From NCBI GenBank assembly GCA_017642935.1, contig JAEPOK010000001.1, positions 1,843,192 through 1,907,191 on the forward strand: a stretch of DNA of 64,000 bases, written 5' to 3'. This stretch comes from Hyphomicrobiales bacterium. Lineage in GTDB: Bacteria; Pseudomonadota; Alphaproteobacteria; Rhizobiales; MH13. Position 1 is the first letter of the stretch. The number at the start of each line of letters is the position of its first letter. Both the position numbers and the translations under genes were made by a program. A model generated the notes under the pieces. The model did no database searches. It was not told the origin of the DNA and saw nothing but the letters and a program-made list of their open reading frames with translations. This document shows, one piece after another, positions 18,542 to 46,900 of this stretch.

Positions 18542-18557
18542 GCGGCCTCCCGGAAAA

Positions 18558-18584: not shown

Positions 18585-18678
18585 CTTCCTGGGCCATTGA
18601 TGGCCAGTACATCGTGGGCGGCAGTCCCCTTTCTTGCTGACCGACCTTGAGACATCCAAGACAGACAGGTCACACACA

Positions 18679-19806: not shown

Positions 19807-19807
19807 T

Positions 19808-20613: not shown

Positions 20614-20650
20614 TTGTGGCGCCGGATTTGGAACCGGCGTCACGCCACAA
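20614..20650. terminator. Bulged hairpin between convergent ABC ATPase and DUF2848 genes
   Basis: TTGTGG pairs with CCACAA and CGCCGG with CCGGCG around ATTTGGAA, with a 5-base bulge. It starts 12 bases after the ATPase stop and covers the stop of the convergent DUF2848 gene. No T run follows, so its function as a bidirectional terminator is tentative. Confidence 0.4.
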
Positions 20651-21299: not shown

Positions 21300-21307
21300 G
21301 GGTTTTC

Positions 21308-23151: not shown

Positions 23152-23190
23152 TGGTTGGGTCCGGGCTGTTTGTTGGTTAGGGTCGGAACT

Positions 23191-24240
23191 CTAGTTCAGT
23201 GGAATGGACACACCGGTTGCTTCGCCAACGCTGGCGTTCCAGCGTTGTGCCCAATCATCGCCGGCACGTTCAGCCCAATCGGGAAGAACCTCGGTGACCA
23301 GAATATCGCGGGCGCGGGCCACATCTTCCTCGCTGGCCTCAACCAGCGCCAAGTCGCGGGCATCGCCAAGGGTGCATTCCGATGTGCCGGTAAGGCAGGC
23401 AATGTCCATGGCAAGACCATCCTGGGCCACCTCCCAGGCTGGATCTTCAAACTGCTCTTTGATGGCGGATTCCAGCGTTGCCTGATCCTCTGCGGACAGG
23501 CCGTTCCACGTGTCCATGTTGATGGCTGTGACCACTGGATCCCAGCCGCCAAGGGGGATCGCCAACAGGTGGGTGGAGACTTCCCACCAACCAGCATTGT
23601 AGCCCGAACCTGCGCCCGTGATCGCGCAATCGACGACGCCGCGTTGCAGCGCGCCAGGCACCTCGCCGAAGCCGAGTGTGATGCCTTCAGCGCCGAGCGC
23701 TTCCAGGAAAAGCGCGGTCATGCGGCCAGAAGCGCGGATTTTCTTGCCTTCAAGATCGGCCAGGCTTGCAACATCCGCGTTGCAGAACACGACCTGCGGT
23801 GGGTAAGGCGCGATGGCGAGCACATGGGCGTTGAAGGTGTCAGCGTAAATGTCAGCAACCATTGGGCGAGCCGCATCCACCATGGTGCGGGCTGAGGCCG
23901 CATCGGTAGCAATGAGAGGCACATCCAGACCTTCCAGTTCCGGGGCATCGGACACGGCGTAATCGGCCACAGTCATACCAACATCAAAGACGCCATCCCC
24001 GAGCATGCGGAACACATCACCGCCACCGATACCCATCTGGTCATGGGTGGTGAGCGCGGAGGACAGGCTGCCTTGGCTGACTTCACTCAAAACGTCGTTC
24101 CAAAACGGCGCTTCGAACTGACGGTGAAGCGGCAGTCCACTCCACGAGCCGACAACGGCCAACTCTTCGGAGATTGCCGGGGCGGCCAATAGCGTTGCGC
24201 CGAGCGTGGTGGAAAGGGTGAGGATCAGAGTGCGTTTCAT
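23191..24240 (-). CDS. dctP: TRAP importer periplasmic binding protein
   Basis: 349-residue exported binding protein. An N-terminal signal peptide (MKRTLILTLSTTLGATLLAA, cleavage near AISEE) is followed by the DctP fold. The conserved ligand-carboxylate Arg is in GKKIRASGRMT, and GALQRGVVDCAITG is the usual hinge motif. It is the second gene of the operon after the DUF1445 gene. Organic acids are typical ligands; the two associated enzymes would process what is brought in. Confidence 0.92.
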   Translation of the reverse strand: MKRTLILTLSTTLGATLLAAPAISEELAVVGSWSGLPLHRQFEAPFWNDVLSEVSQGSLSSALTTHDQMGIGGGDVFRMLGDGVFDVGMTVADYAVSDAPELEGLDVPLIATDAASARTMVDAARPMVADIYADTFNAHVLAIAPYPPQVVFCNADVASLADLEGKKIRASGRMTALFLEALGAEGITLGFGEVPGALQRGVVDCAITGAGSGYNAGWWEVSTHLLAIPLGGWDPVVTAINMDTWNGLSAEDQATLESAIKEQFEDPAWEVAQDGLAMDIACLTGTSECTLGDARDLALVEASEEDVARARDILVTEVLPDWAERAGDDWAQRWNASVGEATGVSIPLN

Positions 24241-24288
24241 CGAAAGTCTCTCCTGTTTGCATTGTTTTTTGTAGTTTTGTGATCGGTG

Positions 24289-25131
24289 TCAGGCCCCATC
24301 GAAGGTTCCACCAATGGCACCGTGGAACTCATCGAGATCGGTGATCAGCATGGAGCCCGGCGCGTGGGTCACGCAGATGGCGGGCTTGGCGTTGGTGATG
24401 GCAACTTGCGGCGTCACCCCGCAGGCCCAAAACACGGGCACCTCTTCCGGAAGAACGTCCAGCTGGTCGCCCCAGTTGGGGAGGTTAAGGTCGGCGATAC
24501 CAAGCTCTTTGGGATCGCCAATGTGAATGGGCGCGCCATGGGCAAGGGGATAGCGCGCGGAAATGGTTATGGCGCGGTCCACGTCAGGCTCAGCGATCGG
24601 GCGCATAGAGGCGACCATCGCGCCATGGAACACGCCGCTTGGCACTGTCTGGCGATTGGTTATGAACATCGGCACAGTGCGGTCCTGCTCCACATGACGC
24701 ATCGCGATACCCGCTTCCATCAAAGCCCGTTCAAAGGTGAAAGAGCAGCCGATGGCGAAAGCCACCCAGTCATCTTGCCAGAGCGTGTTCAGGTCCGTAA
24801 CCGACGCGTCGAGCACGCCGTTGCGGTAGACATTGTATAGCGGCACATCGGTGCGTAGATCGATATCAGCACCCAGCGAAGGGATCGTCTGGTCACCAGG
24901 CTTGGTCATGCCGACCAAGGGGCAGGCCTGCGAGTTGGCCGCGCAGTAGCCTTCAAAAGCTTCGGCGTCAGATTGGGGTAAAATGACCAAGTTGCATTGC
25001 AAATGCCCAGCGCCCAAACCCGCTGTATGGCGCGTGTAGGCACCTTGGCGGATCACCTCACGCACCGTCTGCAACGGCTCACCTTTCAAGGCGGCATGGC
25101 TGATTGATGATGGGGTAGGCGCTTGCAGCAA
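24289..25131 (-). CDS. DUF1445 / D-glutamate cyclase-like putative hydro-lyase
   Basis: 280-residue protein of the DUF1445 family (YcsI-like, annotated as putative hydro-lyase; a mammalian relative acts on D-glutamate and 5-oxoproline). Characteristic stretches are TRHTAGLGAGHLQCNLVILP, FAIGCSFTFE and FWACGVTPQ with THAPGSMLITDL at the C-terminus. It is the first gene of the TRAP operon, so its product likely acts on the imported compound. Whether that is a D-amino acid derivative or lactam is not visible from sequence. Confidence 0.85.
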   Translation of the reverse strand: MLQAPTPSSISHAALKGEPLQTVREVIRQGAYTRHTAGLGAGHLQCNLVILPQSDAEAFEGYCAANSQACPLVGMTKPGDQTIPSLGADIDLRTDVPLYNVYRNGVLDASVTDLNTLWQDDWVAFAIGCSFTFERALMEAGIAMRHVEQDRTVPMFITNRQTVPSGVFHGAMVASMRPIAEPDVDRAITISARYPLAHGAPIHIGDPKELGIADLNLPNWGDQLDVLPEEVPVFWACGVTPQVAITNAKPAICVTHAPGSMLITDLDEFHGAIGGTFDGA

Positions 25132-25189
25132 AGGGGCTTCCTCTTCGTGTGCATGAAGAGTGTCCGCTTGGGTGCGATAACGTCAAATC

Positions 25190-25227
25190 GTGATTATTTG
25201 TAGGTATCGATAAATTATTATTATCAC
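25190..25227. promoter_or_regulatory. Dyad upstream of the DUF1445-TRAP operon
   Basis: GTGATTAT (25190-25197) and ATTATCAC (25220-25227) form a dyad with one mismatch in an AT-rich stretch of about 40 bases. It lies about 60-95 bases ahead of the DUF1445 start and overlaps the LysR stop codon. Such a spaced dyad could be a regulator site or the operon promoter. No direct proof. Confidence 0.3.
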
Positions 25228-26090
25228 TTAGAGGCGACGTCGCGCGCGATCAAAGCCGCCTGGGCCGCCACGCGATCAACCGGTTCGGCAAGGTAAGAGG
25301 CGGTGAAGCGAAGCGGATTGACCGACCAGCCCGGATCAAACGGCTGGAGATCACCGCGGGCGATGCGCGCTTGGGCCAGACGGATGGGCAGAACCCCAAC
25401 ACCAAGCCCGGCGGTCACCATCTCAAAACAGGCGGACAACGAACTGGAGGGAAACAAGCGCACCGACGGGCCAAAGCGATCCACCAGGGCGGCATGTACT
25501 TCGCGATAAGGCCGCGTGTTGCGGGCATAGGTGATGACTGCCACGGTGCTGAGGTCGGGCGTGCCATCGCGGCAAAGATCGGGTGCTGAAAACCACCCCA
25601 GCTCAAACGAGGGCAGCTCGATATTTTCAATGCTGTATTCCGAGATTGGCCCCATCAGCAGCGCAAGGTCGATGGAGCGGTCGAGCAGTTGGTCACGCAG
25701 ATTGACGGAGATATCCACCGACACCTCAATCGTCAGCGCATCGTAGCGCGCCTGCACTGCTGAGACCAAAGCGGGCAACCAGGCCTGGGCGATGGTTTCT
25801 GCCGCGCCGATACGCAGCTGACCGGTGAGTTTATCGCGCGGGGTGATCTCGGCGCGCACACGGCCCACAAGGTCCATCATCTGCCGAGCGTAGGGCGCAA
25901 AGTCGGCTCCAGATTTGGTCAGCACCAGCCCCTTGGCGCGGCGCTCAAACAGCGGTGCGCCCAAGCTTTCTTCCAGCGCTGCTAGGCGGGCCGACAAAGC
26001 TGGCTGGGTGATGTGCAACTGCTGAGCAGCGGCGCGCACCGATCCGTAGCGCACGATGAAGAGAAAGGTCTTGATCTGATCGAGCGTCAC
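25224..26090 (-). CDS. LysR-family transcriptional regulator
   Basis: 288-residue regulator with the LysR N-terminal helix-turn-helix (VRAAAQQLHITQPALSARLAALEESLG) and a C-terminal substrate-sensing domain. It is read in the same direction as the TRAP operon and ends about 90 bases before it, so it probably controls that operon. Its own start region faces mobA, with 78 bases between them. The inducer is not known. Confidence 0.92.
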   Translation of the reverse strand: MTLDQIKTFLFIVRYGSVRAAAQQLHITQPALSARLAALEESLGAPLFERRAKGLVLTKSGADFAPYARQMMDLVGRVRAEITPRDKLTGQLRIGAAETIAQAWLPALVSAVQARYDALTIEVSVDISVNLRDQLLDRSIDLALLMGPISEYSIENIELPSFELGWFSAPDLCRDGTPDLSTVAVITYARNTRPYREVHAALVDRFGPSVRLFPSSSLSACFEMVTAGLGVGVLPIRLAQARIARGDLQPFDPGWSVNPLRFTASYLAEPVDRVAAQAALIARDVASK

Positions 26091-26168
26091 GGGGCGATCT
26101 GCTGCTCTGGCGGCTGGGAGTTTGCTATAGCACTTCGCGCGTCAGGCAAAAGCGGTTATGCCAATGCC

Positions 26169-26732
26169 ATGCGTATTGCAGCCATCCTAACCGGCGGGAA
26201 AAGCCGCCGTATGGGCGAAGACAAAGCTCTGCTTGATCTGGGCGGTGAGCGGCTGGTGGATCGCGTTATTGCGCGGCTCGCGCCACAAGTCGATCGGGTC
26301 TGTTTGGTCGGGCCTATCGATTATGGTACCGGCCTTGCCACCGTGGCTGACGATCCAAACTTTCAAGGTCCGTTGGCTGGCATTTTTGGGATGCTGGCCT
26401 GGATGCAGGAGCATCACGCCGAGGCGGATGCTTTTCTCACGGCGCCAGTGGACACACCGCATTGTCCAAACGATCTCTACGAGAAGCTGACAGAGATGCC
26501 CGGCAGCGCCATGGCTGCGGATGCCAAGCGTATTCATCCAACCTTCGCGCATTGGCATGTGTCCGAGCTGGTCAAAGCGCGTGAAGGCGTAGATGCATCA
26601 GGATCACTGCACAGCTTGGCTGAGGCGGTGGGCGCGTGGCCGGTCGCATGGCCCTCGGGCGCGCCATTCCTGAACCTTAACACGCCTGAAGAGGCTCAAT
26701 CCTTCTTAGCGTCAGAGGAAGCCGCCGGTTAG
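26169..26732 (+). CDS. mobA: Molybdenum cofactor guanylyltransferase
   Basis: Attaches GMP to molybdopterin, giving the MGD cofactor of DMSO reductase-family enzymes. 187 residues, with the nucleotidyltransferase motif LTGGKSRRMGEDKALLDLGG at the start, FQGPLAGIFGML and the metal-binding APVDTP. The frame is open to 26013, but that part overlaps the divergent LysR gene; the ATG at 26169 starts the protein just before the GG motif. The 3' end overlaps the convergent RuBisCO-like gene by 4 bases. Confidence 0.9.
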   Translation: MRIAAILTGGKSRRMGEDKALLDLGGERLVDRVIARLAPQVDRVCLVGPIDYGTGLATVADDPNFQGPLAGIFGMLAWMQEHHAEADAFLTAPVDTPHCPNDLYEKLTEMPGSAMAADAKRIHPTFAHWHVSELVKAREGVDASGSLHSLAEAVGAWPVAWPSGAPFLNLNTPEEAQSFLASEEAAG

Positions 26733-27859
26733 AGGCTCTTGTCGATAGCACGGTGTAGTTCGGCTAGGCCTTCGCCAATGTTGTCACCATAGCGTAGCAG
26801 ATTGCCGCCGAGCAGGAACACGGCGTCTTCCCCATACATGTCATTCATGTCAGTGGCGCGCTCTACACTCATGCCTCCGCCGGGTGATGGAAAGATCCCC
26901 GGGCCCGGTGCGCTATCATCGCGGCAAGCATCGGCAATGGAGAGGCATTCCTCGGCGGTAAACCCAAAGCGCCCACCAACATTTGGAAACACCGAAATGT
27001 CCGACCCAGCGATGCGTTGCAGCGTGCCGAACATCATCGCGTGGGTAAGGCCAGTGTCTTTGGACAGAACATAAGGTCCAAGAAAACTCGGGTGGGTCAT
27101 CACCGGCATGGCGAGCGTTTCATCGCGGGCGATGCGGCGCACCAGATCAAACCCAAACAGGCCCGGCATAATCAGCAGCCCATGCACGCCATGGTCTTTG
27201 GCGAAGCGCGCATTGTCCATCAGATCTTCGCTGTGCCCGGCCAGGCCTGCGAAGTAGAGTGTGGTGCGTCCTGTTTCCTGGTTGGCTTTGGCAACCGCCT
27301 CACCGATGCGCTGCACGCGTTCGCGGAACGGGGCGCAGGGCTGATCGGTCAGGCCATGATCTTCTTTCACCAGATGTGCGCCACCGACGGCGCAACGATA
27401 GGCGATGTCGGCCAGCGTTTGCGCGCTGGAGCCCTGCGGCTTCAACACCGGCGAAAGCAATGGGCCGCGTGGCGCGCCAGCCAGTTTGCGCAGGCCTGCA
27501 ATGCCAAAGCGTGCGCCCGGATGGGCGTCCGCCAGTGGACCCAGATCAACGCCGATGGTTTTGACACCGGTCTGGATCGACGTGTTGCCCATGACCACGT
27601 TGAGAAGTTGCGGCAACTCGGTGCCGGTGCTTTGCGGGCTATAGCTGATGATAGCGTCAAACGCGCCCTCGCCCGATGGCGTGACCGTTTCCACCTGTCC
27701 CATAACAGTGTCTTCGACGAACCCGGCAGGCACCACATCGCGTGGTATCTCGACGGTCTGCTCTAGAGCGATACCAACCGCACGTTTCTCTGCCTGCGCT
27801 TGGCTGCTGGCAAAGACGCGATAGGTGACCTTGAACCGGCCCTCAAGAACGCCCGGCAT
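26729..27859 (-). CDS. RuBisCO-like protein (form IV large-subunit homologue)
   Basis: 376-residue homologue of the RuBisCO large subunit that should not fix CO2. The barrel motif that is KPKLG in RuBisCO reads KPQGS here. The metal-site KDDE reads KEDH, keeping the carbamylated Lys and one Asp but changing the Glu to His. HRAMH reads HPSFL, losing the Arg. GGGM remains as the phosphate loop. Known relatives are enolases or isomerases in methionine salvage and decarboxylase-type enzymes in apionate catabolism. Its ATG overlaps the stop of the transketolase C-subunit gene (TAATG), and mtnK/mtnA lie in the same locus, so a methylthioribulose- or deoxyribulose-phosphate substrate is plausible but unproven. 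Confidence 0.88.
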   Translation of the reverse strand: MPGVLEGRFKVTYRVFASSQAQAEKRAVGIALEQTVEIPRDVVPAGFVEDTVMGQVETVTPSGEGAFDAIISYSPQSTGTELPQLLNVVMGNTSIQTGVKTIGVDLGPLADAHPGARFGIAGLRKLAGAPRGPLLSPVLKPQGSSAQTLADIAYRCAVGGAHLVKEDHGLTDQPCAPFRERVQRIGEAVAKANQETGRTTLYFAGLAGHSEDLMDNARFAKDHGVHGLLIMPGLFGFDLVRRIARDETLAMPVMTHPSFLGPYVLSKDTGLTHAMMFGTLQRIAGSDISVFPNVGGRFGFTAEECLSIADACRDDSAPGPGIFPSPGGGMSVERATDMNDMYGEDAVFLLGGNLLRYGDNIGEGLAELHRAIDKSL

Positions 27860-28863
27860 TAGAGACCTTCGGCTTTGACGGTGGAGTGAACAGCATCGAC
27901 ACGCGCGGTGGTCAGATCATCCTCGGTGATGCCGAGCTCAGCGCCTAAAAGATCTTCCACACCGGCCACCAAGGCGGTGGCATCCAGGCCATAATACTTC
28001 ATCAGATAGCCGCGAGAACCGCCATGGGCATAGGTGTCTTTCAGGCCCAGCCGCACCAGGCGTTTGCCAACGCCATTGTCGGCCATAATCTCGGCAAGCA
28101 GCGACCCGATGCCACCTTCGGTCACGTGGTTTTCCAGTGTGACCACACCACCTTTGACCGACTGAATATGGTCCAACATGGCTTTGGCATCGAACGGTTT
28201 GATTGTGTTCAGATGCAGATGGCGCACCGAGACGCCCTTTTCTTCCAAAGCACCGCGTGCACGCAGTGCTTCCTCGGTGCTGATGCCTGACGTGACGATC
28301 AGAACATCGTCCCCCAGCGCCAGCTCGCGCATCTTGCCGACTTCAATCGGCGTATCGAACAGGCGCGGCACGGAGCCACGCAGCACGCGACAATAGACCG
28401 GGCCGTCAATGCTATCGGCAGCCTCGCAGATCGATTCCACCTCGGTGGCATCGCCGGTTTCCAGAATCGTCATGTTGGGGATCGAACGCATCACCGAGAT
28501 GTCTTCAATCGCTTGGTGGGTCATGCCACCAGGCGTCGTGACGCCGGGCAGAAAACCCATCAAGCGAACCTTGCGGCGTGGATAAGCGATAGACGCCATC
28601 AACTGATCATAGGGGCGGCGATAGAGGAACACGCCGAACGTGTGCAGGAACGGGCGGAAGCCAGCCATGCCCAAACCACCGGCAAAGGAGAGCATGTTCT
28701 GCTCAGCCATACCCAGCGAGAGAAACTTATCGGGATGCTTGTCGCGGAATTTATCAATCTCGCACGACGAGGTGAGATCTGCGGACAGGCACAGCACTTC
28801 GGGGTGCGCCATCGCATAGGCTTCAAAGGCCCGCTCATAGGGGCGACTGACCATCTCCGGCAT
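27859..28863 (-). CDS. Transketolase-like protein, C-terminal subunit
   Basis: 334 residues covering the PYR and C-terminal domains of a transketolase/DXS-type enzyme. It contains the family Glu in FLSLGMAEQNMLSFAGGLGMAG and the GGMTHQAIEDISVMRSIPNM segment. The frame extends to 28914, but the ATG at 28863 lies 1 base after the stop of the N-subunit gene (TGATATG) and is the likely start. Split transketolases with separate N and C chains occur in sugar-specific operons, for example apulose-phosphate cleavage. Together with the N-subunit it should make one ThDP enzyme that moves two-carbon units. Confidence 0.88.
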   Translation of the reverse strand: MPEMVSRPYERAFEAYAMAHPEVLCLSADLTSSCEIDKFRDKHPDKFLSLGMAEQNMLSFAGGLGMAGFRPFLHTFGVFLYRRPYDQLMASIAYPRRKVRLMGFLPGVTTPGGMTHQAIEDISVMRSIPNMTILETGDATEVESICEAADSIDGPVYCRVLRGSVPRLFDTPIEVGKMRELALGDDVLIVTSGISTEEALRARGALEEKGVSVRHLHLNTIKPFDAKAMLDHIQSVKGGVVTLENHVTEGGIGSLLAEIMADNGVGKRLVRLGLKDTYAHGGSRGYLMKYYGLDATALVAGVEDLLGAELGITEDDLTTARVDAVHSTVKAEGL

Positions 28864-28864
28864 A

Positions 28865-29815
28865 TCAGTGCGCTCCCTGGTAATCGACAGGATCAACGCC
28901 AAGGGCGCGGGCAATGTCGTGGTTCATCTCCGCGCGCTCTTCTTCGGATTTGAAGCGCACATAGTGGAGGCGAGGAAAGCGGCGTTGCAGCGTTGGCATG
29001 CCACGGAACGGCGAGGTGTTGGCGAGGATGATCAGCGGCTTGCCTTTGTGCTTTTCCTGCACGGCATCGCGCATCTCATCGAGCTTGTGACCGTCGATGG
29101 AGACGACGACAGCGCCGAAATTTTCCATCTTGGTTTTGATGTCGCCGACTTCCATCACCGAACTCATGGCGCCGTCGCACTGTTGACGATTCACATCCAT
29201 GATGGCGTAGAGATTGTCGATGCCATGATGGGCGGCGCATTGAATGGCCTCCCAGGTCTGGCCTTCCTGCACCTCACCGTCGGACATAAAGACCCAGGTT
29301 TTGCCGGTCTCTTTCTTGCGCTTGCGCGCCCAGGCAAGGCCCGCTGCGGTAGAGAAACCGATGCCCAGCGTGCCATTGTGCACCTCCATGCCGGGCGAGT
29401 GTTCTGCGCCGATCATTTCAACCGAGGATCCATCCTTGTTGAACATCTCAAGGCCTTCCGGCGCCATGCGGCCGACCTCAATCAGGGTGGCGTAAGCGAC
29501 CAGCGCATAGTGGGCAGGGGCGATGAAAAGCCGATCCAGATCGCTGCGCTCTGGGCCATTGTAACCAGCGCCGGTGTGATAGGTGGGATTGTCAGCCGAC
29601 GGCACACCGCCAAAGGGTTTGGGGATCATTGGCAGCGTTGGCGCACCAAGCTCCAACTGCTCATTGTAGAGCCACGACAATTGCTCAGCGGCGGAGCAGG
29701 CTTGGCTCAGATACCCACCATTGTTGCGCATCGCGTGCTCGAACACGCGACGGCGAATGCCAAGCGCAATCTCTTCGGTGGTTTTTGCGTTCCGACGGAT
29801 CATGGCCATCGTCAC
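28865..29815 (-). CDS. Transketolase-like protein, N-terminal ThDP-binding subunit
   Basis: 316 residues carrying the ThDP-pyrophosphate half of a split transketolase. The motif begins at SDGEVQEGQTWEA (usual GDGE is SDGE here) and ends at DVNRQQ; GMEVHNGTLGIGFSTAAG is also typical. It is the first gene of a three-gene unit with the C-subunit and the RuBisCO-like protein, all coupled. The 137-base gap upstream contains a terminator for the preceding binding-protein gene and a set of TGTCAA/TTGACA repeats that may be an operator. Confidence 0.88.
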   Translation of the reverse strand: MTMAMIRRNAKTTEEIALGIRRRVFEHAMRNNGGYLSQACSAAEQLSWLYNEQLELGAPTLPMIPKPFGGVPSADNPTYHTGAGYNGPERSDLDRLFIAPAHYALVAYATLIEVGRMAPEGLEMFNKDGSSVEMIGAEHSPGMEVHNGTLGIGFSTAAGLAWARKRKKETGKTWVFMSDGEVQEGQTWEAIQCAAHHGIDNLYAIMDVNRQQCDGAMSSVMEVGDIKTKMENFGAVVVSIDGHKLDEMRDAVQEKHKGKPLIILANTSPFRGMPTLQRRFPRLHYVRFKSEEERAEMNHDIARALGVDPVDYQGAH

Positions 29816-29907: not shown

Positions 29908-29927
29908 AGGGGGCCAAGTTGGCCCCC
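29908..29927 (-). terminator. Terminator-like hairpin after the second binding-protein gene
   Basis: A 9-pair GC-rich stem (arms GGGGGCCAA and TTGGCCCCC around one base) starts 26 bases after the stop of the binding-protein gene on the minus strand and is followed by a short T-rich stretch (CTTGTTATG). It probably separates the transporter transcript from the transketolase unit. Confidence 0.5.
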
Positions 29928-29952: not shown

Positions 29953-31005
29953 TTAACGTGGCGGCAGCGGCATCCAGTCGGTCATCGCCACATCAGCGTG
30001 CTGGAACTGCGGCATGGCCGAGGAGAGATCCGCCATGTTGGAAATGTCAGCCTCATTGAGGAAATCCTGGGTGATGAGGGTCGGTGGGACGACCACCTGA
30101 GCACCCGGATCGCCACCGGCCAGCATGATGGCCAGCGCGCGCACCGACACTTCGCCAACAACAGCGGGGTTGGTGGCAACGGTTGCCTTCCACGGGCTGC
30201 CAGGTTCCCGCATGACGGCGATATCGGCGGTGGAAACGTCGGCAGAGTAGATCGAAACATCTGAGGACATGCCAGCCTCGTTCACCGCAATCACCACGCC
30301 TTTGGCGAACTCGTCATAGGGTGCAAACACCACATTGATGTTGGGGTTGGCCTGCAGCACCGAGCGCGCCTGGTTGGCGTTGGAGTTGGCGATCGGATTG
30401 TCCAAGGTGCCGAAGCGGGCAACCTCATTGATGCCTGGGTTTTCCTCACGCACTTCCTGCCAAGCAACATCACGACGATCGAGCGGCGCGATGCCGGGCA
30501 CGTAGACGTAGCCTGCAGTCCACTCGGTGCCATTGTCTTCAATCGCCTGATCCAGCGCCATGCGGCCAAGCAGATAATCGGACTGCTCGATCTGCGGGAT
30601 GGATTCATTTTCCACGTTAACATCGAAGGCGACAACACGAATGCCTGCATCGACGGCACGTTGGGCAGCCTCACGCATCGACTCTGTCAAACCATGCTGG
30701 ATGATGATGCCGTCCACACCAAGCGCGATGGCTTGGTCGACCATGTCGGCCTGCAACGCCGCATCCTGACGGCTGTCAAAGACACGTAGATCGACGCCGA
30801 GCGCTTCGGATTGGGCCTCAACGCCTGCCAGATAGGCCTGGAAGAAATCACCGGTGGAGAGATACCGCACCAGTGCGATTTGCACGTCGCCAGCATTGTC
30901 AAACGGGGCAGGCATGTCCTGGGCGAGCGCAGCGCCGGTCATGCCGGTGGAGGCGACAAGCGCGCCGGCCACCATTTTCATGAAAGTTCGTTTTGTGCCG
31001 ATCAT
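29953..31005 (-). CDS. Periplasmic sugar-binding protein, ABC importer of the mtn locus
   Basis: 350-residue exported type I binding protein. The N-terminus MIGTKRTFMKMVAGALVAS is a signal peptide; the KRTFMK stretch resembles a Tat motif with KR instead of RR, but Sec export is also possible. The frame is open to 31107; ATG 31005 has AAGGGAGA ahead and is preferred. The fold resembles ribose-binding proteins. It is separated from the permease gene by a 138-base structured repeat region. The likely cargo, methylthioribose or 5-deoxyribose, is inferred from the kinase and isomerase across the divergent promoter. Confidence 0.87.
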   Translation of the reverse strand: MIGTKRTFMKMVAGALVASTGMTGAALAQDMPAPFDNAGDVQIALVRYLSTGDFFQAYLAGVEAQSEALGVDLRVFDSRQDAALQADMVDQAIALGVDGIIIQHGLTESMREAAQRAVDAGIRVVAFDVNVENESIPQIEQSDYLLGRMALDQAIEDNGTEWTAGYVYVPGIAPLDRRDVAWQEVREENPGINEVARFGTLDNPIANSNANQARSVLQANPNINVVFAPYDEFAKGVVIAVNEAGMSSDVSIYSADVSTADIAVMREPGSPWKATVATNPAVVGEVSVRALAIMLAGGDPGAQVVVPPTLITQDFLNEADISNMADLSSAMPQFQHADVAMTDWMPLPPR

Positions 31006-31058
31006 TGGAGTTTCTCCCTTTTCAAGTTCGGTCTTTTTGCGGGTGTATGACCCGGTTC

Positions 31059-31084
31059 GAGCAAGCGCGCATGCGCGCTTGCTC
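31059..31084. repeat. 26-base perfect palindrome in the permease/binding-protein gap
   Basis: The two 13-base arms are perfect reverse complements; the left arm begins GAGCAAGCGCGC. It lies 54 bases upstream of the binding-protein start inside a transporter operon. In RNA it would form a very stable hairpin that could stabilise the upstream message or halt transcription. Confidence 0.7.
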
Positions 31085-31100
31085 TGTTTCTTTGTCTGAC

Positions 31101-31143
31101 GCGCCATTGTTCCGAAAACCGGTTCCCACTTTTCAGATGGCGC
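31101..31143. repeat. Structured intergenic element with CCGAAAACCGG core
   Basis: GCGCCAT (31101-31107) and ATGGCGC (31137-31143) are inverted repeats flanking a core that reads CCGAAAACCGGTTCCCAC. This core matches a dispersed intergenic motif I recognise from rhizobial genomes. With the palindrome at 31059-31084 it probably forms one mosaic repeat. It ends next to the permease stop codon. Confidence 0.5.
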
Positions 31144-32217
31144 TTAATGCCCCCCGCCACGCTTGCGCGTGGAAAGGGCAAAGGTGAACATGAGCGCGAC
31201 GACAAGGACGCCGCCTTTGACGAAATCCTGGGTGTAGTAAGGCGCGTTCATCATGGTGAGGCCTTGCAACAAAACGCCGACGAACAGCGCACCAATGGCC
31301 GTGCCGAAGGCGTTGGGTTTGGCAGCGCCGAGCACAGCAAAACCGATCAAGGCGGCCGCCACACTGTCGAGCAGCAGATTGTTGCCAGAGGCGATGTCGC
31401 CACGCCCGAGACGAGCGGCCAGCAAGATACCTCCGATGGAGGCCATGACGCCGGAGATCATGTAAGCAGTGATCTTGTAGCGATTAACATTGGTGCCAGC
31501 GAGCGCGGTGGCGCGCTCATTGGAGCCGATGGCGTACATCAGGCGGCCATGACGGGTAAGTTCCAAAAACACCCAGACCAGGAGTCCGACGATCAGAAAT
31601 ACGATCACCGGTACCGGGATCAAATCTTCCAGCACGAAGTCAAACCGGTGCCGGCCCAGCCAAAGGAAAGCGGGCGAAAAGACGCCTTCAGCCACGTCGC
31701 CACCCGGCAAGGTCATGCCGGTGGAAATGGAGCGCCCCTCGGTCGGGATGCGCTGTAAGCCGATTAGCAGGAACATCATGCCAAGCGTCGCCAAAAGGTC
31801 TGGAACGCGCATTTTCACAATCAACAGACCGTTGATGAGGCCAACAAAGGCCCCCATCATCAGACAGGCCAGCACGGCCACAAACGCCGACTGTTCGAGC
31901 ACCACCATCATGTAGGCCGAGAGCATCAGCGCTGATGTTGCAACCGACCCGATGGAAAGATCAAAGCCGCCCACGACCAGCGTGCAGGTAACGCCAAGCG
32001 CCAAGATGCCCGTGATCGCCACGGACTGGAAGATGAAGGCAGCAGAACGCGGACCCGCAAAACCATTGGTGGCGAGCGAGAAGAAGACGATCAGACCCAG
32101 TAGCAGGCACAAAAAACCATACCGGATGGCCAGGTTCACCAGCGTCTGCGACCGGTCGACACTCGGGGGAAGAGGCTTTGCGGTATCAGGTTGGGAGGTC
32201 TGCGTGTCGGTTGTCAT
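31144..32217 (-). CDS. Ribose-type ABC importer permease of the mtn locus
   Basis: 357-residue integral membrane protein of the RbsC-like family. It contains VGGFDLSIGSVATSALML, INGLLIVKMRVPDLLATLG and the cytoplasmic-loop region AIGSNERATALAGTNVNRYK, all standard in the family, plus about nine hydrophobic segments. Its ATG overlaps the ATPase stop by 4 bases. It would pair with the tandem ATPase upstream and the binding protein downstream. Confidence 0.92.
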   Translation of the reverse strand: MTTDTQTSQPDTAKPLPPSVDRSQTLVNLAIRYGFLCLLLGLIVFFSLATNGFAGPRSAAFIFQSVAITGILALGVTCTLVVGGFDLSIGSVATSALMLSAYMMVVLEQSAFVAVLACLMMGAFVGLINGLLIVKMRVPDLLATLGMMFLLIGLQRIPTEGRSISTGMTLPGGDVAEGVFSPAFLWLGRHRFDFVLEDLIPVPVIVFLIVGLLVWVFLELTRHGRLMYAIGSNERATALAGTNVNRYKITAYMISGVMASIGGILLAARLGRGDIASGNNLLLDSVAAALIGFAVLGAAKPNAFGTAIGALFVGVLLQGLTMMNAPYYTQDFVKGGVLVVALMFTFALSTRKRGGGH

Positions 32218-33770
32218 GAAGCGTGTGTTTCTATGTTGGAAGACTGGTTTGCCTGACCGGACACCTGCGCCAGCATAGCGCCCAAGTCGACATCCTCATT
32301 GCGGTGCTCGCCCACCAGGCTGTGCTCGTAAAGGACAAGAATGCGGTCAGCGATTTCGAGCGCCTCATCCAGTTCGGCAGCAAAAACGATGGTCGCACGC
32401 TCGCTGGCGGTATCGCGGATGGAGCGGCCAATGTCGCGGCGGGCGCGGATATCCACGCCCTGGAAAGGCTCATCGAGCACCAGAAGCTCACTGGCTTCAG
32501 CCATCCAACGGCCAACCATCACCTTTTGCTGGTTGCCGCCCGACAGCGTGCCGATATCGTCGGCGGGTGATTGGCAGACCACGCCCAGCTGGTCGATCAT
32601 CGATTGTGTGGTCCGCTTTTCGCTGGCCCTGCTCAAAAAGGAGAGAGGGGCATGGCGGGCGGTGAACGGCAAGGTGAGATTTTGCGTGATATCGAAGGTT
32701 GGGATAACGCCATTCGACGCGCGGTCTTTGGGCGACATAAACACACCAGCGGCGATGGCAGCTTCTGGTGAGGCGGGTGTGTAGGCCTTACCGGCCAAAC
32801 GCATCTGGCCAGCGAGCGGCTTCTCCATGCCGAACAGGATCGAGGCAAGCTTGGTCTTGCCGCTGCCCAACAGCCCGGTGATCGCCACCACCTCGTTGCG
32901 GTGGATCGTCAAAGTGATCGGTGCGCCGCCTTCAGAGAGCTTCAAGCCGTCCAGTTCGATCACGGGCTCGCCTTCGGTGGCGACGTTGATGTCGACTGCT
33001 GTCATGGCATGGCCAAGCATGGCCGTAACAGCGCCTTCATAGTCGAGCGGCTCGGTTTCGAACGTGCCAGAAATCTGACCATCGCGCATCGAAATGATGC
33101 GGTCGGCGATGCGGCGAATGTCCGACATACGGTGCGAGATGTAGAGGATCGCGACGCCAGTTTCACGCAAGTGATCGAGCAGCTTGAAGAGACGCTCAGC
33201 TTCCGTGGCCGAGAGCGATGAAGTCGGCTCATCAAGGATGAGAACTTTCGGATCCTTGGCCATGGCGCGGGCGATAGCAATCAGCTGGCGCTCGGCGACA
33301 CCCAAATCAGAAACCTGCGTGCGCACATCAATGTCCAAGCCCATGGCCGACGCAATTTTGCGTGCATCCTTACGCAGCTTGCCCTGGTTGATGAAGAAAC
33401 CTGCACCCGGCTCGTTCAGGCGGTCGAGCATCAGGTTGGAAGCAACGTCAAGGTCAGGGATTACGCCATCATTGATGGACTGGTGGACGGTGACCACGCC
33501 AGCTTCAATCGCCTGGCTGGGGGATGCGGGGGAAAACGATTCGCCAAACAGTTCGATGCTGCCGCCATCGCATGCATGCACACCGCAAAGAATTTTCACC
33601 AATGTGGATTTGCCAGCGCCGTTCGCGCCCATCAGCACGGTGATCTGACCGGCTGGGATCGTAAGATCGATGCCCCGCAAAACGCGGTTTGGCCCAAAGG
33701 CTTTTTCGATTCCGACGACGCGGCACGCGGCGTGTTGCATAGGCTGGTGGCCCGTTTGTTGTTCGCCCAT
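32214..33770 (-). CDS. Tandem-domain ABC importer ATPase of the mtn locus
   Basis: About 518 residues with two ATP-binding domains, as in RbsA-type importers. Domain 1: Walker A GANGAGKST, Walker B VLILDEPTSSLS, and a degenerate signature (LGVAERQ). Domain 2: degenerate Walker A GLLGSGKTK, signature LSGGNQQK, Walker B LLVLDEPFQGVD. Start choice is uncertain: the frame is open to 33821, with in-frame ATGs at 33770 and 33740; 33770 has a distant GGGAG. It is the first gene of the minus-strand transporter operon, divergent from mtnK. Confidence 0.9.
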   Translation of the reverse strand: MGEQQTGHQPMQHAACRVVGIEKAFGPNRVLRGIDLTIPAGQITVLMGANGAGKSTLVKILCGVHACDGGSIELFGESFSPASPSQAIEAGVVTVHQSINDGVIPDLDVASNLMLDRLNEPGAGFFINQGKLRKDARKIASAMGLDIDVRTQVSDLGVAERQLIAIARAMAKDPKVLILDEPTSSLSATEAERLFKLLDHLRETGVAILYISHRMSDIRRIADRIISMRDGQISGTFETEPLDYEGAVTAMLGHAMTAVDINVATEGEPVIELDGLKLSEGGAPITLTIHRNEVVAITGLLGSGKTKLASILFGMEKPLAGQMRLAGKAYTPASPEAAIAAGVFMSPKDRASNGVIPTFDITQNLTLPFTARHAPLSFLSRASEKRTTQSMIDQLGVVCQSPADDIGTLSGGNQQKVMVGRWMAEASELLVLDEPFQGVDIRARRDIGRSIRDTASERATIVFAAELDEALEIADRILVLYEHSLVGEHRNEDVDLGAMLAQVSGQANQSSNIETHAS

Positions 33771-33823
33771 GGTTTGTCCATGGTTGCTCCCTGAGGATGA
33801 TCGTGAGCGCCCAAATGGCAAAA

Positions 33824-33839: not shown

Positions 33840-33935
33840 AAATGGCGAATTGGACGACCAGACTTGCGGTTAATGAATAAGGTTCGAGCAGGCGCACCCA
33901 CCAAATGAGGTGTGCAGCATAGGAGGAACGAACCC

Positions 33936-35201
33936 GTGGCGACCACTCAAACTCCACATGACTATAAAGCGCTCAGCGTTGAAACGCTGCCTGGCCGGCT
34001 TGTCGGCGTAGCTGACCTTTCAACACGCGTTGGGGCCGATCCGGCCAGTTGGTCAGTTGAAGAAGTTGGCGATGGCAATTTGAACCTGGTGTTCATCGTC
34101 ACTGGGCCATCTGGCCGCGTGGTGGTGAAGCAGGCCTTGCCCTATGTGCGATTGGTCGGCGACAGCTGGCCGCTTCCATTGAAGCGCGCCTTCTTTGAAT
34201 TTCACGCTCTGACACGCCAAGCCGCACGTGACCCTGGCATGGTGCCCGACATCTACCATTTCGATGAAGCTCAAGCGCTGATCGTGATGGAGTATCTGTC
34301 ACCGCACATCATTTTGCGTGGCAAGCTGATCAAGGGCGAAAGTGTCGATGGTTTGGGCAAGGCGCTCGGGCTGTTCTGCGCCCGCACCGCCTTTCGCGGC
34401 TCTGACCTTGCGATGAACGCCGGCGAGAAGAAGGCTGATACGGCTCTATTCACTGGCAATGTGGAGCTGTGTGACATCACCGAGCAGTTGGTGTTCACCG
34501 ACAGCTACCATGACGCTGAGCGCAACCATCACACGCCTGAGCTTCAGCCGGTCGTCGATGAGCTACGGGCCGATCCCGCGCTGAAGGCTGCCGCACAGTT
34601 CATGCTGATGCGGTTCACGTCGGGCGGCGAAACGCTGATGCACGGCGACCTGCACACCGGCTCGGTGATGTGCACTGACACCGATACGAAGGTGATCGAT
34701 CCCGAATTCGCGTTTTACGGCCCGCTTGGTTTCGACCTTGGGATGCTGATTGCGAACTATCTGATGGCCTATTTCAGCCAGCCTGCCCATCGCTCTGCCG
34801 ATGAGCTGGACGGCTATCAGAACTGGCTTCTCGACGTCACGCGCGAGACCAGCATAACCTTCCACGCCGAGTTTGCTCACCTCTGGGCCAACGAACGCAC
34901 GGGCATTCTCTATCCCCCGGCGCTTTTGGAAGATCAGGGTCAGTCTTCAGACGGCGCGCGCGATGCGCTGCTCAACCACATCTGGAACGACGCGATGGGC
35001 TTTTGCGGCGTGGAGCTGCACCGGCGCATCCTAACGCTGGCGCACAACGCTGATTTCGAGACCATTGAGGACACCGCTGCGCGCGCCAAACTGGAGGCGC
35101 GAAGCCTCGATCTTGGTCGCGCCATCTTGCTCAAGCGCCCATCCAACGTTGACGAGCTAATCGCGTTGGCGCGGGAAACGAACGCAAAGGACCTGCTATG
35201 A
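33936..35201 (+). CDS. mtnK: 5-methylthioribose kinase
   Basis: Phosphorylates C1 of 5-methylthioribose (relatives also accept 5-deoxyribose). 421 residues. Visible: [14 protein letters not shown] with the glycine-rich ATP loop, [10 protein letters not shown] with the ATP-binding Lys, [10 protein letters not shown] with the catalytic Asp, and [16 protein letters not shown] with the metal-binding Asp. The start is GTG at 33936, 9 bases after AGGAGG; an earlier in-frame GTG at 33912 lies upstream of that ribosome site. First gene of the operon mtnK-mtnA-aldolase/SDR-regulator, each joined by a 4-base overlap or tiny gap. Confidence 0.93.
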
Positions 35202-36304
35202 AAGTCGATGGCACGCACTACCGCTCCATCTGGTACGATGCGGACACCGATGAGGTGCGCATCATCGACCAGCGCTGGCTGCCGCATGCGTTTAAGATCG
35301 TCTCGCTGAAAAGCCTGGAAAGCTTTGCCACAGCCATCCGCGACATGTGGGTGCGCGGCGCCCCGCTGATCGGAGCGACAGCGGCCTATGGCATGGCCGA
35401 AGAGATGCGTCGTGATCCCTCCGACGCTGCGCTGAACAGCGCCTGGGATGTGCTCCACGACACGCGCCCCACCGCGATCAATCTGAAATGGGCGCTGGAC
35501 AGGTGTAGGACATATTTGCAGCCGCTGGCGCCCGCCGACCGGGCTGACGCTGCGATGAGGCTAGCGCACGAGATCGCTGACGAGGATGTTGAGATCAATC
35601 GGATGATCGGCGTCCACGGGCTAGAAATCATCAAACAGATCGCGGCGAAGAAACCCGCTGGCGAGCCGGTGCGGTTGCTGACTCATTGCAATGCCGGTTG
35701 GCTTGCGACCGTCGACTGGGGCACCGCCACCAGTCCGATGTATCACGCGGCCAATGCTGGCCTGCCGATCCATGTTTGGGTGGATGAAACCCGCCCGCGC
35801 AACCAAGGCGCGCTGACCGCCTGGGAGGTGGGCAGCCACGGCATCAACCACGCCTACATTACCGACAATGCAGGCGGCCATCTGATGCAGCACGGGCAAG
35901 TGGATATGGTGATCACCGGCACCGACCGCACCACGGCGCGCGGCGATGTCTGTAACAAGATCGGCACCTATCTCAAAGCGCTCGCCGCCCATGACAATGG
36001 CGTGCCGTTTTATGTGGCCCTGCCCTCACCCACCATCGATTGGACGGTGCAGGATGGGGTGAAGGAAATTCCCATCGAAGAGCGCCCGGGCCGCGAAGTT
36101 TCGCACATTCAAGGCGTTTTGGCAGATGGGTTGATTGGCGAGGCGCAGGTGTCGCCTGATGGATCACCGCTTGGCAACTCAGCCTTTGACGTGACCCCTG
36201 CTCGTCTCGTCACCGGCCTCATCACCGAGCGCGGCGTTTGCGAGGCGTCGCCAGAGGGCTTGGCCACGCTGTTTCCTGAACGCGCGGCGGCCGAACCGAT
36301 ATGA
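35198..36304 (+). CDS. mtnA: Methylthioribose-1-phosphate isomerase
   Basis: Converts methylthioribose 1-phosphate (or 5-deoxyribose 1-phosphate) to the ribulose 1-phosphate. 368 residues, of the eIF2B-related family. The catalytic Cys is in [16 protein letters not shown] and the catalytic Asp in [33 protein letters not shown] is the family N-terminal motif. ATGA overlaps join it to mtnK before it and to the aldolase gene after it, so the three enzymes should be made together. Confidence 0.95.
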
Positions 36305-38334
36305 TCGACAATCGATGGAGTGATGCAGACGCGCAAGCGTGGGTGGATGCGCTTGGGCCCGATGCCAGCGAGGCCGATAAAGTGTTGGCCCATCGCGTCT
36401 ACACAAGCCAGATTATTGGCCAGAACCCCGACCTTGTGATGCATGGCGGGGGCAACACGTCTGTGAAGGTGACGCGGCCTGATTTGTTTGGTGAGCCGCA
36501 GCGCGTTCTGCATGTGAAGGGTTCAGGCTGGGATCTTGATACCATCCAGGCGCCTGGTCTGCCCGGGGTTCGTCTTGACCCACTGCTTGCGCTGCGCGCG
36601 CTTGACGCTCTGTCGGACGAAGAGATGGTCAATGTCCAACGGCAGAACCTGCTTGATTCCACCGCGCCGAACCCGTCCGTTGAGACGCTGCTGCACGCCT
36701 TCCTGCCGCACACCTTTGTCGATCACACCCACGCCACACCGTTTCTGGTCCTGGCCAATTTGCCCAACGCCGAAGACGTGGCGCGGCAGATATTCGGCGG
36801 CCGGCTGGGCATCGTTCCTTACATCATGCCCGGTTTCGCTTTGGCCAAGGCGGCGGCGGAAGTCTACGATTCCAACCCCGATGTTGAGGGCTTGCTGCTG
36901 TTGAAGCATGGCCATTTCGCGTTCGGGCCAGATGCCAAATCCAGCTACGATCTAATTGTTTCGCACACCAATGAGGTGGCTGATTTCCTGAAAATGCAGG
37001 AAGCAACGTCGCTTCAGGTACGTTTGCCAGCCCAGGCTCCCGACGGGTTGGCACGATTGCGCGGTGCGTTGGCCGCGGACCATGCGGATGCCGCTATGCC
37101 GATCCTTGCGCTGCGCAACGGATCGGAAGTCATGACGTTCTTTGAGCGTAACGATGCCACCGATTTGGCGACACGCGGCGTTGCTTCTCCCGACCATGTA
37201 ATCCGCACCAAAGCCAAACCGCTGGTGCTTTCGAAGGATGACCTTGCCTCACAGGAGGCGATCACGGCCAAGATCAATGCGTTCAAAGCGGAGTATGAGG
37301 CCTATTTCACCCGGCAGAATGCGCGCGTTGGAAACGACCGCAAGATGCTCTCCCCTAGCCCCAATTTGGTTTGGGCAGAAGGCTTTGGGCTGATCGGCAT
37401 CGGATCATCAGACAAGGCGGCCCATATTGCTGCCGATCTTGGTGAGCAGAATTTGCGGGTTCGTGCTTTTGGCGAGGATGTTGGCGGCTTCAAACCCATC
37501 CAAGAGAACGATCTTTTCGACATGGAGTATTGGTCACTGGAGCAGGCCAAGCTCGGCAAGGGCAAGCCTGCCGCCTTTGCCAGCCGTGTGGTGATGGTCA
37601 CCGGTGGAGGCGGTGCCATTGGACACGCGATTGCCAAAGCGTTTGCGGCCCTTGGCGCAAGTGTCTTTCTGGTGGATCGCGACAAGGACCAGCTGGCCGC
37701 AGCGTTGAAAAGCTTGGGCGCTAGCCATGATGGCCTGGCCCTAGATGTGACCGATCCTGATGCCGCCGAGCAGGCGATGGATCAGGTGACGCAGCGGTTC
37801 GGTGGGCTGGATATCTTGTTGTCCAATGCAGGCGCGGCGCTGAGCGGCGCGCTTGCTGATCTCACCGATGAGCAGTTGCGGGCGGCCTTTGAGCTTAACT
37901 TCTTCTCCCATCAGCGTTTTGCCAAGGAAGCAGCAGCTTTGTTTGCGCGTCAGGGACGTGGCGGGCAGATGCTCTTCAACATCTCCAAACAGGCGGTGAA
38001 TCCGGGTAAGAATTTCGGCGCCTACGGCATGCCCAAAGCAACGACCTTCTTCCTGATGCGGCAGCTTGCTCTGGAGCTTGGAGATCAGGGCATTCGGGTC
38101 AATGGCGTCAACGCTGATCGTATCCGCTCCGGTCTTCTGACGGATGACTTCATCGCTGAGCGGGCCAAAGCGCGCGGCACCGATGAAGCCTCTTACATGG
38201 CTGGCAATCTGTTGAAGCGCGAAGTGGAGGCCCATCATGTGGCCGATGCTTTCACTGCCTTGGCGCACATGGAACGCACCACCGGCCATGTGGTAACGGT
38301 CGATGGCGGCAACATCGAAGCCGCTTTGAGGTAG
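36301..38334 (+). CDS. Class II aldolase / short-chain dehydrogenase fusion
   Basis: 677-residue bifunctional enzyme. Residues about 30-300 are a class II (AraD/fuculose-type) aldolase with [10 protein letters not shown], the metal-binding DHTHATPF and KHGHFAFG. From about residue 420 a short-chain dehydrogenase follows: [13 protein letters not shown] for the nucleotide, [13 protein letters not shown] with the Ser, and YGMPK with Tyr and Lys. Its best-known relatives split L-rhamnulose 1-phosphate and process lactaldehyde. Here it is coupled to mtnA, so the likely reaction is cleavage of methylthioribulose or 5-deoxyribulose 1-phosphate to DHAP plus methylthioacetaldehyde or acetaldehyde, with the second domain reducing or oxidising the aldehyde. 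Confidence 0.9.
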
Positions 38335-38342
38335 GAGTCTGA

Positions 38343-39308
38343 ATGCCGGACGGGAAGACAGCCAAGGATGCCAGCCACTCCGAGGCGCAGCTCGCCCATG
38401 TGGCCATGCTCTACTACCGCGAAGGGCTGACGCAGAGCGAGATCGCCCAGCGCATTGGTCTGTCGCGTGCAACCATCGTGAACTATCTGCGGCTCGCCCG
38501 TGACCTTGGCATTGTCGATATCCGCATTCGCGGCGAAAGCTTCACCGCCTCGCCGCTTTCGCGCAAACTGACAGAGCGGTATGGCCTGACAGACTGCTAC
38601 ATTGCGCATAATGATGTGGAGCCGCAGCGCGACGAAGGTGTGCTGGAACGGGTTGGGCAACTGGCAGCCTCGGCCATGCGTGATCTACTGGAGCCGCGCG
38701 ACAAGCTTGGCATCGCTTGGGGTGAGACCATCCAGCATGTGGCGAACACGTTTCCCAACGGGCCGGTGCCGGGTCTCACTTGCTACCAACTGATCGGGTC
38801 GATGGATTTCAACGCGCTGTTTGCGCCTGAAGCCTGCACGATTGAGATTGCCCGGCGCACACTGGCGCCGTGCCGCACGCTGCACGCGCCTGCGGTTGTG
38901 TCTTCGGTTGATCTGGCATCGCAACTGCGCGAGGAACCGATCATTGCCCGGCAGTTGAACGAGCTCGCAGACCTCACCAAAGCATTGTTCTCGGTTGGTA
39001 GTCTGAGCCACCCGCTCACCCTGGTGGGCTCGGGCATGGCCACGCAGGATGAGCTCGACACCTATGTGGCAATGGGCGCCAAAGGCGTGTTCTGGGGGCA
39101 CTTCATCGACAAGGATGGCAACTGGCTGGACGGCCCGTTAACAGGTCGGCTGGTCGGCGCGTCGCTAGACCAATTACGCGCCATCGCCATGCGTATGTTA
39201 GTCGCCTGTGGCAAAAGCAAACGCGAGGCTATCGAAGCTGCGCTGCACGGCGGGTATGCCACACATCTTGTGACGGACGAAGACACCGCTTCTTGGTTGC
39301 TGCGCTAG
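38343..39308 (+). CDS. SorC/DeoR-type sugar-responsive transcriptional regulator
   Basis: 321-residue regulator: an N-terminal helix-turn-helix (EGLTQSEIAQRIGLSRATIVNYL) and a C-terminal sugar-phosphate-sensing domain of the SorC family, recognised from LGIAWGETIQHVANTF and GAKGVFWGHFIDKDG. It lies 8 bases after the aldolase/dehydrogenase gene and is probably cotranscribed. It likely controls the mtn operon and the divergent importer, with a sugar phosphate intermediate as effector. Candidate binding sites are the TTGAC-type dyads at 33824-33839 and 29864-29902. Confidence 0.92.
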   Translation: MPDGKTAKDASHSEAQLAHVAMLYYREGLTQSEIAQRIGLSRATIVNYLRLARDLGIVDIRIRGESFTASPLSRKLTERYGLTDCYIAHNDVEPQRDEGVLERVGQLAASAMRDLLEPRDKLGIAWGETIQHVANTFPNGPVPGLTCYQLIGSMDFNALFAPEACTIEIARRTLAPCRTLHAPAVVSSVDLASQLREEPIIARQLNELADLTKALFSVGSLSHPLTLVGSGMATQDELDTYVAMGAKGVFWGHFIDKDGNWLDGPLTGRLVGASLDQLRAIAMRMLVACGKSKREAIEAALHGGYATHLVTDEDTASWLLR

Positions 39309-46899: not shown

Positions 46900-46900
46900 T

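Follow-up and report, generated by a model that had tools for sequence, protein, structure and literature searches.

A split transketolase linked to a RuBisCO-like protein

The window analysed here (64,000 nucleotides of a Hyphomicrobiales bacterium, assembly GCA_017642935.1, contig JAEPOK010000001.1, positions 1,843,192 to 1,907,191 of the forward strand) encodes a RuBisCO-like protein (RLP) directly behind the N-terminal (TKN) and C-terminal (TKC) chains of a split transketolase, close to genes for methylthioribose kinase (mtnK) and isomerase (mtnA). We put at about 0.77 the probability that these proteins form a pathway in which the product of the RLP would serve as donor of the transketolase, acting on 5-methylthioribose (MTR) and probably on 5-deoxyribose as well. 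The locus would represent methylthioribose salvage in a new form, with an apparently undescribed transketolase subfamily. A sequence-only reading of the window had suggested a two-step route, in which methylthioribulose phosphate would first be isomerised by the RLP and the xylulose-type product would then be handed to the transketolase, and comparative evidence supports this proposal, namely the mtnK/mtnA linkage, loci of the methylthioadenosine (MTA) salvage type, an MtnA-TKN fusion, the grouping of the RLP, the exclusion of a cupin and a remodelled donor site.

TKN, TKC and RLP are real genes, all located on the minus strand within 26729-29809. TKN (28865..29809) is the chain binding the diphosphate of thiamine diphosphate (ThDP) and carries the Transketolase_N domain (PF00456; best PDB relative 6yak), while TKC (27859..28863) contains the pyrimidine-binding and C-terminal domains (Transket_pyr PF02779 and Transketolase_C PF02780; best PDB relative 6yaj). 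The RLP (26729..27859, RuBisCO_large, best PDB relative 3qfw at 216 bits) is a predicted 5-methylthioribulose-1-phosphate 1,3-isomerase. The overlaps or near overlaps of the three genes described in the sequence-only reading are exact, the TKN/TKC junction reading ...cacTGATATGccg... and the TKC/RLP junction ...ctcTAATGccg..., and an AGGAAAG motif resembling a ribosome-binding site precedes the ATG of TKN.

Conservation of the gene neighbourhood

In the order-level set of 398 genomes an RLP was found at 1e-50 in 34, and RLPs of at least 44% identity (clade RLPs) come from 21 of them. TKN, TKC and RLP are adjacent in 19 of these 21 genomes and mtnK and mtnA lie near them in 13; in loci L048-L050 the genes follow each other as mtnK, mtnA, TKN, TKC and RLP, all in one direction. 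L033 and L043 display an RLP with no adjacent transketolase, and these are probably not true exceptions to the linkage: in genome G171 the RLP (L033) and TKN/TKC (L148) both lie at contig ends, and in genome G073 (L043) TKN/TKC sit elsewhere, on a contig of exactly equal length (L138, 317022 bases). Furthermore, a GTDB scan with the TKN alignment as sole query gave 474 relatives, and gene context was counted for the best 80, which are the closest relatives of TKN and hence a biased sample. Among these 80 loci TKC is present in 79, an RLP near TKN in 47, an RLP together with mtnK and mtnA in 33, a class II aldolase fusion in 13 and a BisC-family oxidoreductase in 31. Nearly all belong to Alphaproteobacteria, many of them to marine Rhodobacteraceae, the outliers being single metagenome-assembled genomes (MAGs) labelled Acidobacteriaceae, Myxococcales and Gammaproteobacteria.

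The link with nucleoside salvage was found at three loci (L103, L104 and L117), where a purine nucleoside phosphorylase, a deaminase and an MtnA homologue occur with TKN-TKC-RLP. The deaminase is related to MTA/S-adenosylhomocysteine (SAH) and 5'-deoxyadenosine deaminases, and the MtnA homologues show 42-44% identity to the MtnA of the window, the L104 copy scoring above the MtnA cut-offs. At L104 all these genes are contiguous. In two MAGs of another genus, an MtnA homologue and the transketolase N chain are joined in a single open frame, an in-frame MtnA-TKN fusion of 656 and 649 codons respectively (L155:7149-9119 and L158:311-2257) that is followed by TKC and RLP; on one of the two contigs, genes for a nucleoside phosphorylase and for a transporter of the Na+/nucleoside type lie nearby. 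Both genomes are drafts and count as a single evolutionary event, and the fusion is strong evidence that isomerase and transketolase serve one pathway. Together, the conserved adjacency and this fusion rule out a chance neighbourhood of RLP and transketolase. MtnA is present in all 22 genomes carrying the RLP-transketolase pair. No high-scoring MTA phosphorylase was found in the genome of the window, which fits the presence of a kinase and an importer.

Placement of the RLP and absence of the cupin

The RLP of the window passes no curated cut-off, with 144 bits for the MtnW model TIGR03332 (cut-off 513.6), 185 bits for the PRK09549 enolase model (cut-off 409) and 59.6 bits for the OiaX model (cut-off 700). 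In Rhodospirillum rubrum and Rhodopseudomonas palustris an RLP of the DeepYkr clade acts as a 1,3-isomerase turning 5-methylthioribulose-1-phosphate into 1-methylthio-xylulose-5-phosphate, from which a cupin strips the methylthio group to give 1-deoxy-xylulose-5-phosphate (DXP) (PMC5893883). In seven order-level genomes with an RLP of 35-40% identity the neighbouring gene encodes such a protein family (a cupin, Cupin_2 confirmed in four), and cupin-adjacent RLPs are closer to 3qfw than that of the window (354 bits for L054 vs 216). Phylogeny against characterised groups, which the sequence-only reading had put forward as a check, places transketolase-paired RLPs, cupin-paired RLPs and 3qfw together against MtnW, Photo and the OiaX-like RLP with 99/98 support. 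Hence the RLP groups with those of the MTA-isoprenoid shunt and not with the OiaX-like sequence; it falls in the DeepYkr-like cupin-paired group, although a nesting within the cupin-paired RLPs is not shown by the tree. The apionate group is represented by that one sequence because none of the 142 class-level genomes searched gave an OiaX above cut-off. Residues K140, K165, D167, H168, H256 and G295-G296-R297 are invariant across transketolase- and cupin-paired RLPs.

The distribution of the cupin is clear-cut, since it is found in none of the 22 RLP-transketolase genomes, that of the window included, and in all seven comparison genomes. For this reason the transketolase seems to stand in for the cupin, and the simplest reading is that it replaces the cupin of the MTA-isoprenoid shunt at the same intermediate. 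Acireductone dioxygenase (ARD) is absent from the genome of the window and above cut-off in only one of the 22. The MtnW enolase of universal methionine salvage is ruled out by score, tree and the absence of ARD. A close homologue of the aldolase fusion (at least 50% identity, full length) is found in only 8 of the 22 genomes; the fusion therefore offers another way out of methylthioribulose-1-phosphate, of the dihydroxyacetone phosphate (DHAP) shunt type, and is not a required step, and as a fixed part of the unit it was rejected, 14 of the 22 genomes having no close homologue. Given these frequencies of ARD and aldolase, the RLP/transketolase route is the only recognisable exit from methylthioribulose-1-phosphate in many carriers.

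More divergent RLPs were also observed. At L060:6553-12725 the gene of an RLP of 34% identity seems to share an operon with those of an MtnK-like kinase, an Fe-ADH_2 protein (glycerol-1-phosphate dehydrogenase-like) and a PfkB-like protein; neither cupin nor transketolase was seen there, and this RLP possibly belongs to another pathway. A second divergent RLP (38% identity) was found at L051:9398-11157 in G004, a close relative of the genome of the window, beside an APH-family kinase-like protein.

Remodelled donor site of the transketolase

The full-length transketolase of the same genome and the split transketolase of Carboxydothermus (6yak/6yaj), the closest solved relative of TKN and TKC, served as references in the alignment, and residues are given in yeast numbering. 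The marks of the transketolase superfamily are present (ThDP/Mg motif, catalytic Glu and domain make-up), and the ThDP/Mg residues as well as the equivalents of yeast H69, D157, N187, H263, E418, H481 and R528 are kept throughout the family. The donor site is where the family departs from this pattern: in TKN, H30 is replaced by Tyr in 99 of 99 sequences and H103 by Met in 98 of 99, and in TKC, H469 is replaced by Phe and D477 by Gly in 98 of 98. The genome's own full-length transketolase keeps the equivalents of H30, H103, H469 and D477. We take the yeast and human transketolase numberings to correspond at these positions. In the human enzyme the residues that a model places around the xylulose-5-phosphate-ThDP adduct include His37, His110, His416 and Asp424 (PMC8016368), and yeast His103 is needed for substrate recognition according to the title of Wikner 1995, as cited in PMC3352088. 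Such changes would be expected if the donor lacks the C1 hydroxyl, as 1-methylthio- and 1-deoxy-xylulose-5-phosphate do.

A housekeeping transketolase was ruled out, as the genome encodes seven other Transket_pyr proteins, a full-length transketolase and DXS included, and the donor site is different. TKN/TKC apparently constitute an undescribed transketolase subfamily, set apart from AptA/AptB and SqwGH by description only.

Transketolase loci without RLP

Relatives of TKN/TKC also occur outside the RLP context, often in the company of a BisC-family S/N-oxide reductase. These RLP-free BisC loci often contain an FGGY kinase closest to xylulokinase, many have a Zn-alcohol dehydrogenase and an AraD-type 4-epimerase, and some a sulfatase with a formylglycine-generating-enzyme-like gene; the substrate of such clusters is perhaps an S-oxidised, sulfated methylthio-pentitol. 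Examples are L082:2376-12630, L077, L065, L091, L138 and others, in which a SorC regulator is also present. A further group combines RLP, TKN, TKC and BisC (L034:4434-19418, L038:290-12548, L041 and L061), mostly with a different ABC transporter and in some cases with a PfkB kinase, and a homocysteine S-methyltransferase-family gene is found in L034, L035 and L039. The common denominator of all these loci would be a 1-substituted xylulose-5-phosphate, supplied either by the RLP as isomerase or through direct phosphorylation, and the recurrent S-oxide reductase favours a methylthio donor over a plain deoxy donor.

Proposed pathway

In the pathway that we propose, the ABC transporter would import MTR, which, as the family membership of the enzymes suggests, would be phosphorylated by MtnK to MTR-1-phosphate and converted by MtnA into 5-methylthioribulose-1-phosphate. 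From the tree and its conserved residues the RLP is predicted to shift the carbonyl, giving 1-methylthio-xylulose-5-phosphate, which is the known reaction of the cupin-paired RLPs. ThDP in TKN/TKC would then attack C2 of this ketose and the C2-C3 bond would be cut, leaving glyceraldehyde-3-phosphate and a cofactor-bound S-methyl C2 unit. We infer this cleavage from the gene context and from the loss of residues contacting the donor hydroxyls.

For the second half-reaction we slightly favour a beta-elimination in which the enamine CH3S-CH2-C(OH)=ThDP would lose methanethiol. Phosphoketolase loses hydroxide and sulfoacetaldehyde acetyltransferase (Xsc) loses sulfite from the ThDP-bound unit. By analogy with these two enzymes, the resulting acetyl-ThDP might be released as acetate or acetyl phosphate. 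No recurrent aldehyde dehydrogenase or product-specific enzyme was found beside the core genes among the clusters examined, a faint hint that the products may enter general metabolism. Tentatively, and with clearly less than even confidence, TKN/TKC may be a novel type of thiamine-dependent lyase, a methylthio-ketose phosphoketolase whose products would be glyceraldehyde-3-phosphate, methanethiol and either acetate or acetyl phosphate; together, this lyase and the RLP would provide a further oxygen-independent route of methionine salvage in marine Rhodobacteraceae and relatives, and in the RLP-free clusters with BisC and a xylulokinase-like kinase the substrate of the lyase would derive from S-oxidised methylthio-sugars.

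Alternative readings

Two alternatives are sub-variants of the proposed pathway. In the first, TKN/TKC would be an ordinary transferase and an aldehyde would accept the methylthio-hydroxyethyl unit, which would give a longer methylthio-ketose phosphate without release of methanethiol. This is a serious alternative, which we hold to be possible rather than probable: every catalytic thiamine residue is kept, and without the D477 equivalent a wider choice of acceptors would be open to the enzyme; the E. coli transketolase variant S385Y/D469T/R520Q accepts aromatic aldehydes (PMC7057962). On the other hand, the clusters have no recurrent gene for an enzyme using the longer ketose, and the methylthio group would merely be moved on.

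In the second, the true substrate would be 5-deoxyribose, from which the RLP would form DXP and the transketolase would move a hydroxyethyl unit to an aldehyde, thereby clearing the 5'-deoxyadenosine of radical S-adenosylmethionine (SAM) enzymes. MtnK/MtnA/aldolase-type sets also serve 5-deoxyribose (PMC6079011, PMC10986504), the L104 deaminase matches the 5'-deoxyadenosine deaminase model as well as the MTA/SAH deaminase, and the loss of H103 fits any donor lacking the C1 hydroxyl. However, the changes of H103 to Met and of H469 to Phe suggest space for a hydrophobic S-methyl group beyond that for a mere hydrogen, members of the clade adjoin BisC-family reductases and, at the three loci mentioned above, the homocysteine S-methyltransferase-family gene, and DXP could go straight to isoprenoid synthesis with no need of a dedicated transketolase. 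We judge 5-deoxyribose as the sole true substrate somewhat unlikely, a confidence that overlaps with that of the proposed pathway.

A role of the RLP in the MTA-isoprenoid shunt, alongside a cupin encoded elsewhere in the genome and with the transketolase as an unrelated neighbour, is very improbable. The RLP does belong to the same broad group as the cupin-paired ones, but the lack of a cupin in all 22 genomes largely refutes this explanation, and chance would hardly produce the adjacency in 19 of 21 genomes or the fusion of MtnA with TKN. Finally, the apionate/apulose catabolism that the sequence-only reading had offered as a rival, with an OiaX-type RLP and the apulose-4-phosphate transketolase AptA/AptB, has hardly any likelihood left: apiose pathways do have a split transketolase and an RLP, but the OiaX score and the tree set the RLP apart, the clusters hold mtnK/mtnA, nucleoside phosphorylase and deaminase with no apiose or apionate genes seen, and the residues for a normal hydroxylated ketose donor are lost.

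Several observations weigh against the pathway in which the RLP product is the transketolase donor. Of the 80 loci, 33 contain a transketolase of this clade but no RLP, and 29 of these 33 have the BisC-family reductase, so that an RLP is not the source of the donor in every case. The clade of transketolase-paired RLPs apart from the cupin-paired ones is weakly supported (67/34). The mapping of active-site residues is alignment-based, with a one-residue gap beside the H103 column; the partner residue of H103 depends on the alignment, the loss of the GHP motif does not. Moreover, as the window itself encodes the aldolase exit, the main flux there may run outside the RLP/transketolase branch, and gene context cannot separate methylthioribose from 5-deoxyribose.

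Layout of the locus and neighbouring genes

On the minus strand the genes read ABC ATPase, permease, sugar-binding protein, TKN, TKC and RLP. The ribose-type ATPase with two ATP-binding domains (32214..33821, start possibly 33770), the ribose-type permease (31144..32217) and the RbsB-like sugar-binding protein (29953..31107, start possibly nearer 30981) form a putative methylthioribose/5-deoxyribose importer, the binding protein being co-conserved with the cluster. A terminator-like stem-loop at 29909..29927 (minus strand) separates the binding-protein gene from TKN, so expression of TKN-TKC-RLP may differ from that of the transporter, possibly by attenuation; with 17 such sites found in the region vs 11.5 expected, the stem is a weak call.

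Divergent from the ATPase side, the plus strand encodes MtnK (S-methyl-5-thioribose kinase, 33912..35201, start possibly 33936; TIGR01767 465.8 bits, cut-off 275), MtnA (S-methyl-5-thioribose-1-phosphate isomerase, 35198..36304; TIGR00512 414.6 bits, cut-off 279), the class II aldolase/short-chain dehydrogenase fusion (36301..38334; Aldolase_II and adh_short, PRK08324.1-6 full-length at 856 bits, cut-off 639) and a SorC/DeoR-type sugar-binding transcriptional regulator (38343..39308; PF04198 195.7 bits and a helix-turn-helix). The latter recurs beside the cluster in relatives and is its probable regulator. No inverted repeat was found, at the length tried, in the divergent region between mtnK and the ATPase gene.

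The 3' end of RLP overlaps a convergent MobA-like gene (26013-26732) by 4 bases (26729-26732). Adjoining the cluster, 20640-26090 contains a D-glutamate cyclase family gene, a TRAP transporter and a LysR regulator, which were not seen conserved with it. Elsewhere in the window are a tandem dihydroxyacetone-kinase-like protein and a xylulokinase passing the TIGR01312 cut-off (41-2910), myo-inositol catabolism genes (5649-12113; IolD above cut-off, an IolC-like protein just below, and others) followed by a ribose-type ABC transporter (17498-20602), and a surface-glycan-type region (40275-56203) with G+C down to 0.53-0.56 in parts, which encodes a glycosyltransferase, a nucleotidyltransferase, an epimerase and a PseC-like aminotransferase just under cut-off.

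Significance and comparison with known systems

SAM metabolism generally leaves methylthioadenosine and 5'-deoxyadenosine behind as by-products that need clearance, and methanethiol from such pathways belongs to the marine sulfur cycle. Most of the genomes examined have neither the dioxygenase pathway nor the cupin shunt, and these two leave their disposal of methylthioribose unexplained. If the proposed pathway is correct, one pair of genes would explain this disposal and add a further exit from methylthioribulose-1-phosphate, and a transketolase-fold subfamily would have an altered donor site predicting 1-deoxy- or 1-methylthio-ketose chemistry. The sequence-only reading knew of no described pathway combining RLP and transketolase with MtnK/MtnA and the aldolase fusion, and no description of the combination was found in the open-access PMC literature, subscription papers lying outside the search.

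The apiose pathways (OiaX RLP; AptA/AptB) share the same two superfamilies but differ in their RLP group, in their apiose genes, absent here, and in the predicted donor chemistry, AptA/AptB being compared by description only. In the sulfoquinovose transketolase reaction the sulfur is at the acceptor-side end and C1 of the donor is hydroxylated. That 6-deoxy-6-sulfofructose transketolase, likewise compared by description only, also has two subunits and cuts a sulfur-bearing sugar (PMC11659671), but its system has no RLP. The split transketolase of Carboxydothermus hydrogenoformans (6yaj/6yak) has the two chains, the ThDP site and the catalytic Glu in common with TKN/TKC; the equivalents of H30, H103 and D477 present there are replaced here, and TKN has ~30 extra residues before the DR motif compared with 6yak. 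The DHAP shunt, the DHAP-ethylene shunt and 5-deoxyribose disposal (MtnK or MtnP, MtnA and class II aldolase; PMC6079011, PMC10986504, PMC12632272) share the kinase and isomerase and, in the window, the aldolase fusion. Indeed, the window has the complete DHAP-shunt gene content, as kinase, MtnA and class II aldolase are all adjacent. However, these shunts have no RLP or transketolase, and the aldolase is dispensable in the RLP-transketolase gene set. Finally, the MTA-isoprenoid shunt of R. rubrum and R. palustris shares the MtnA step, a related RLP, active-site residues including Asp-His 167-168 and the same predicted intermediate; it differs in its cupin methylsulfurylase, in place of which a split transketolase is found here, and where the shunt yields DXP, carbon is here predicted to leave as glyceraldehyde-3-phosphate together with a C2 unit.

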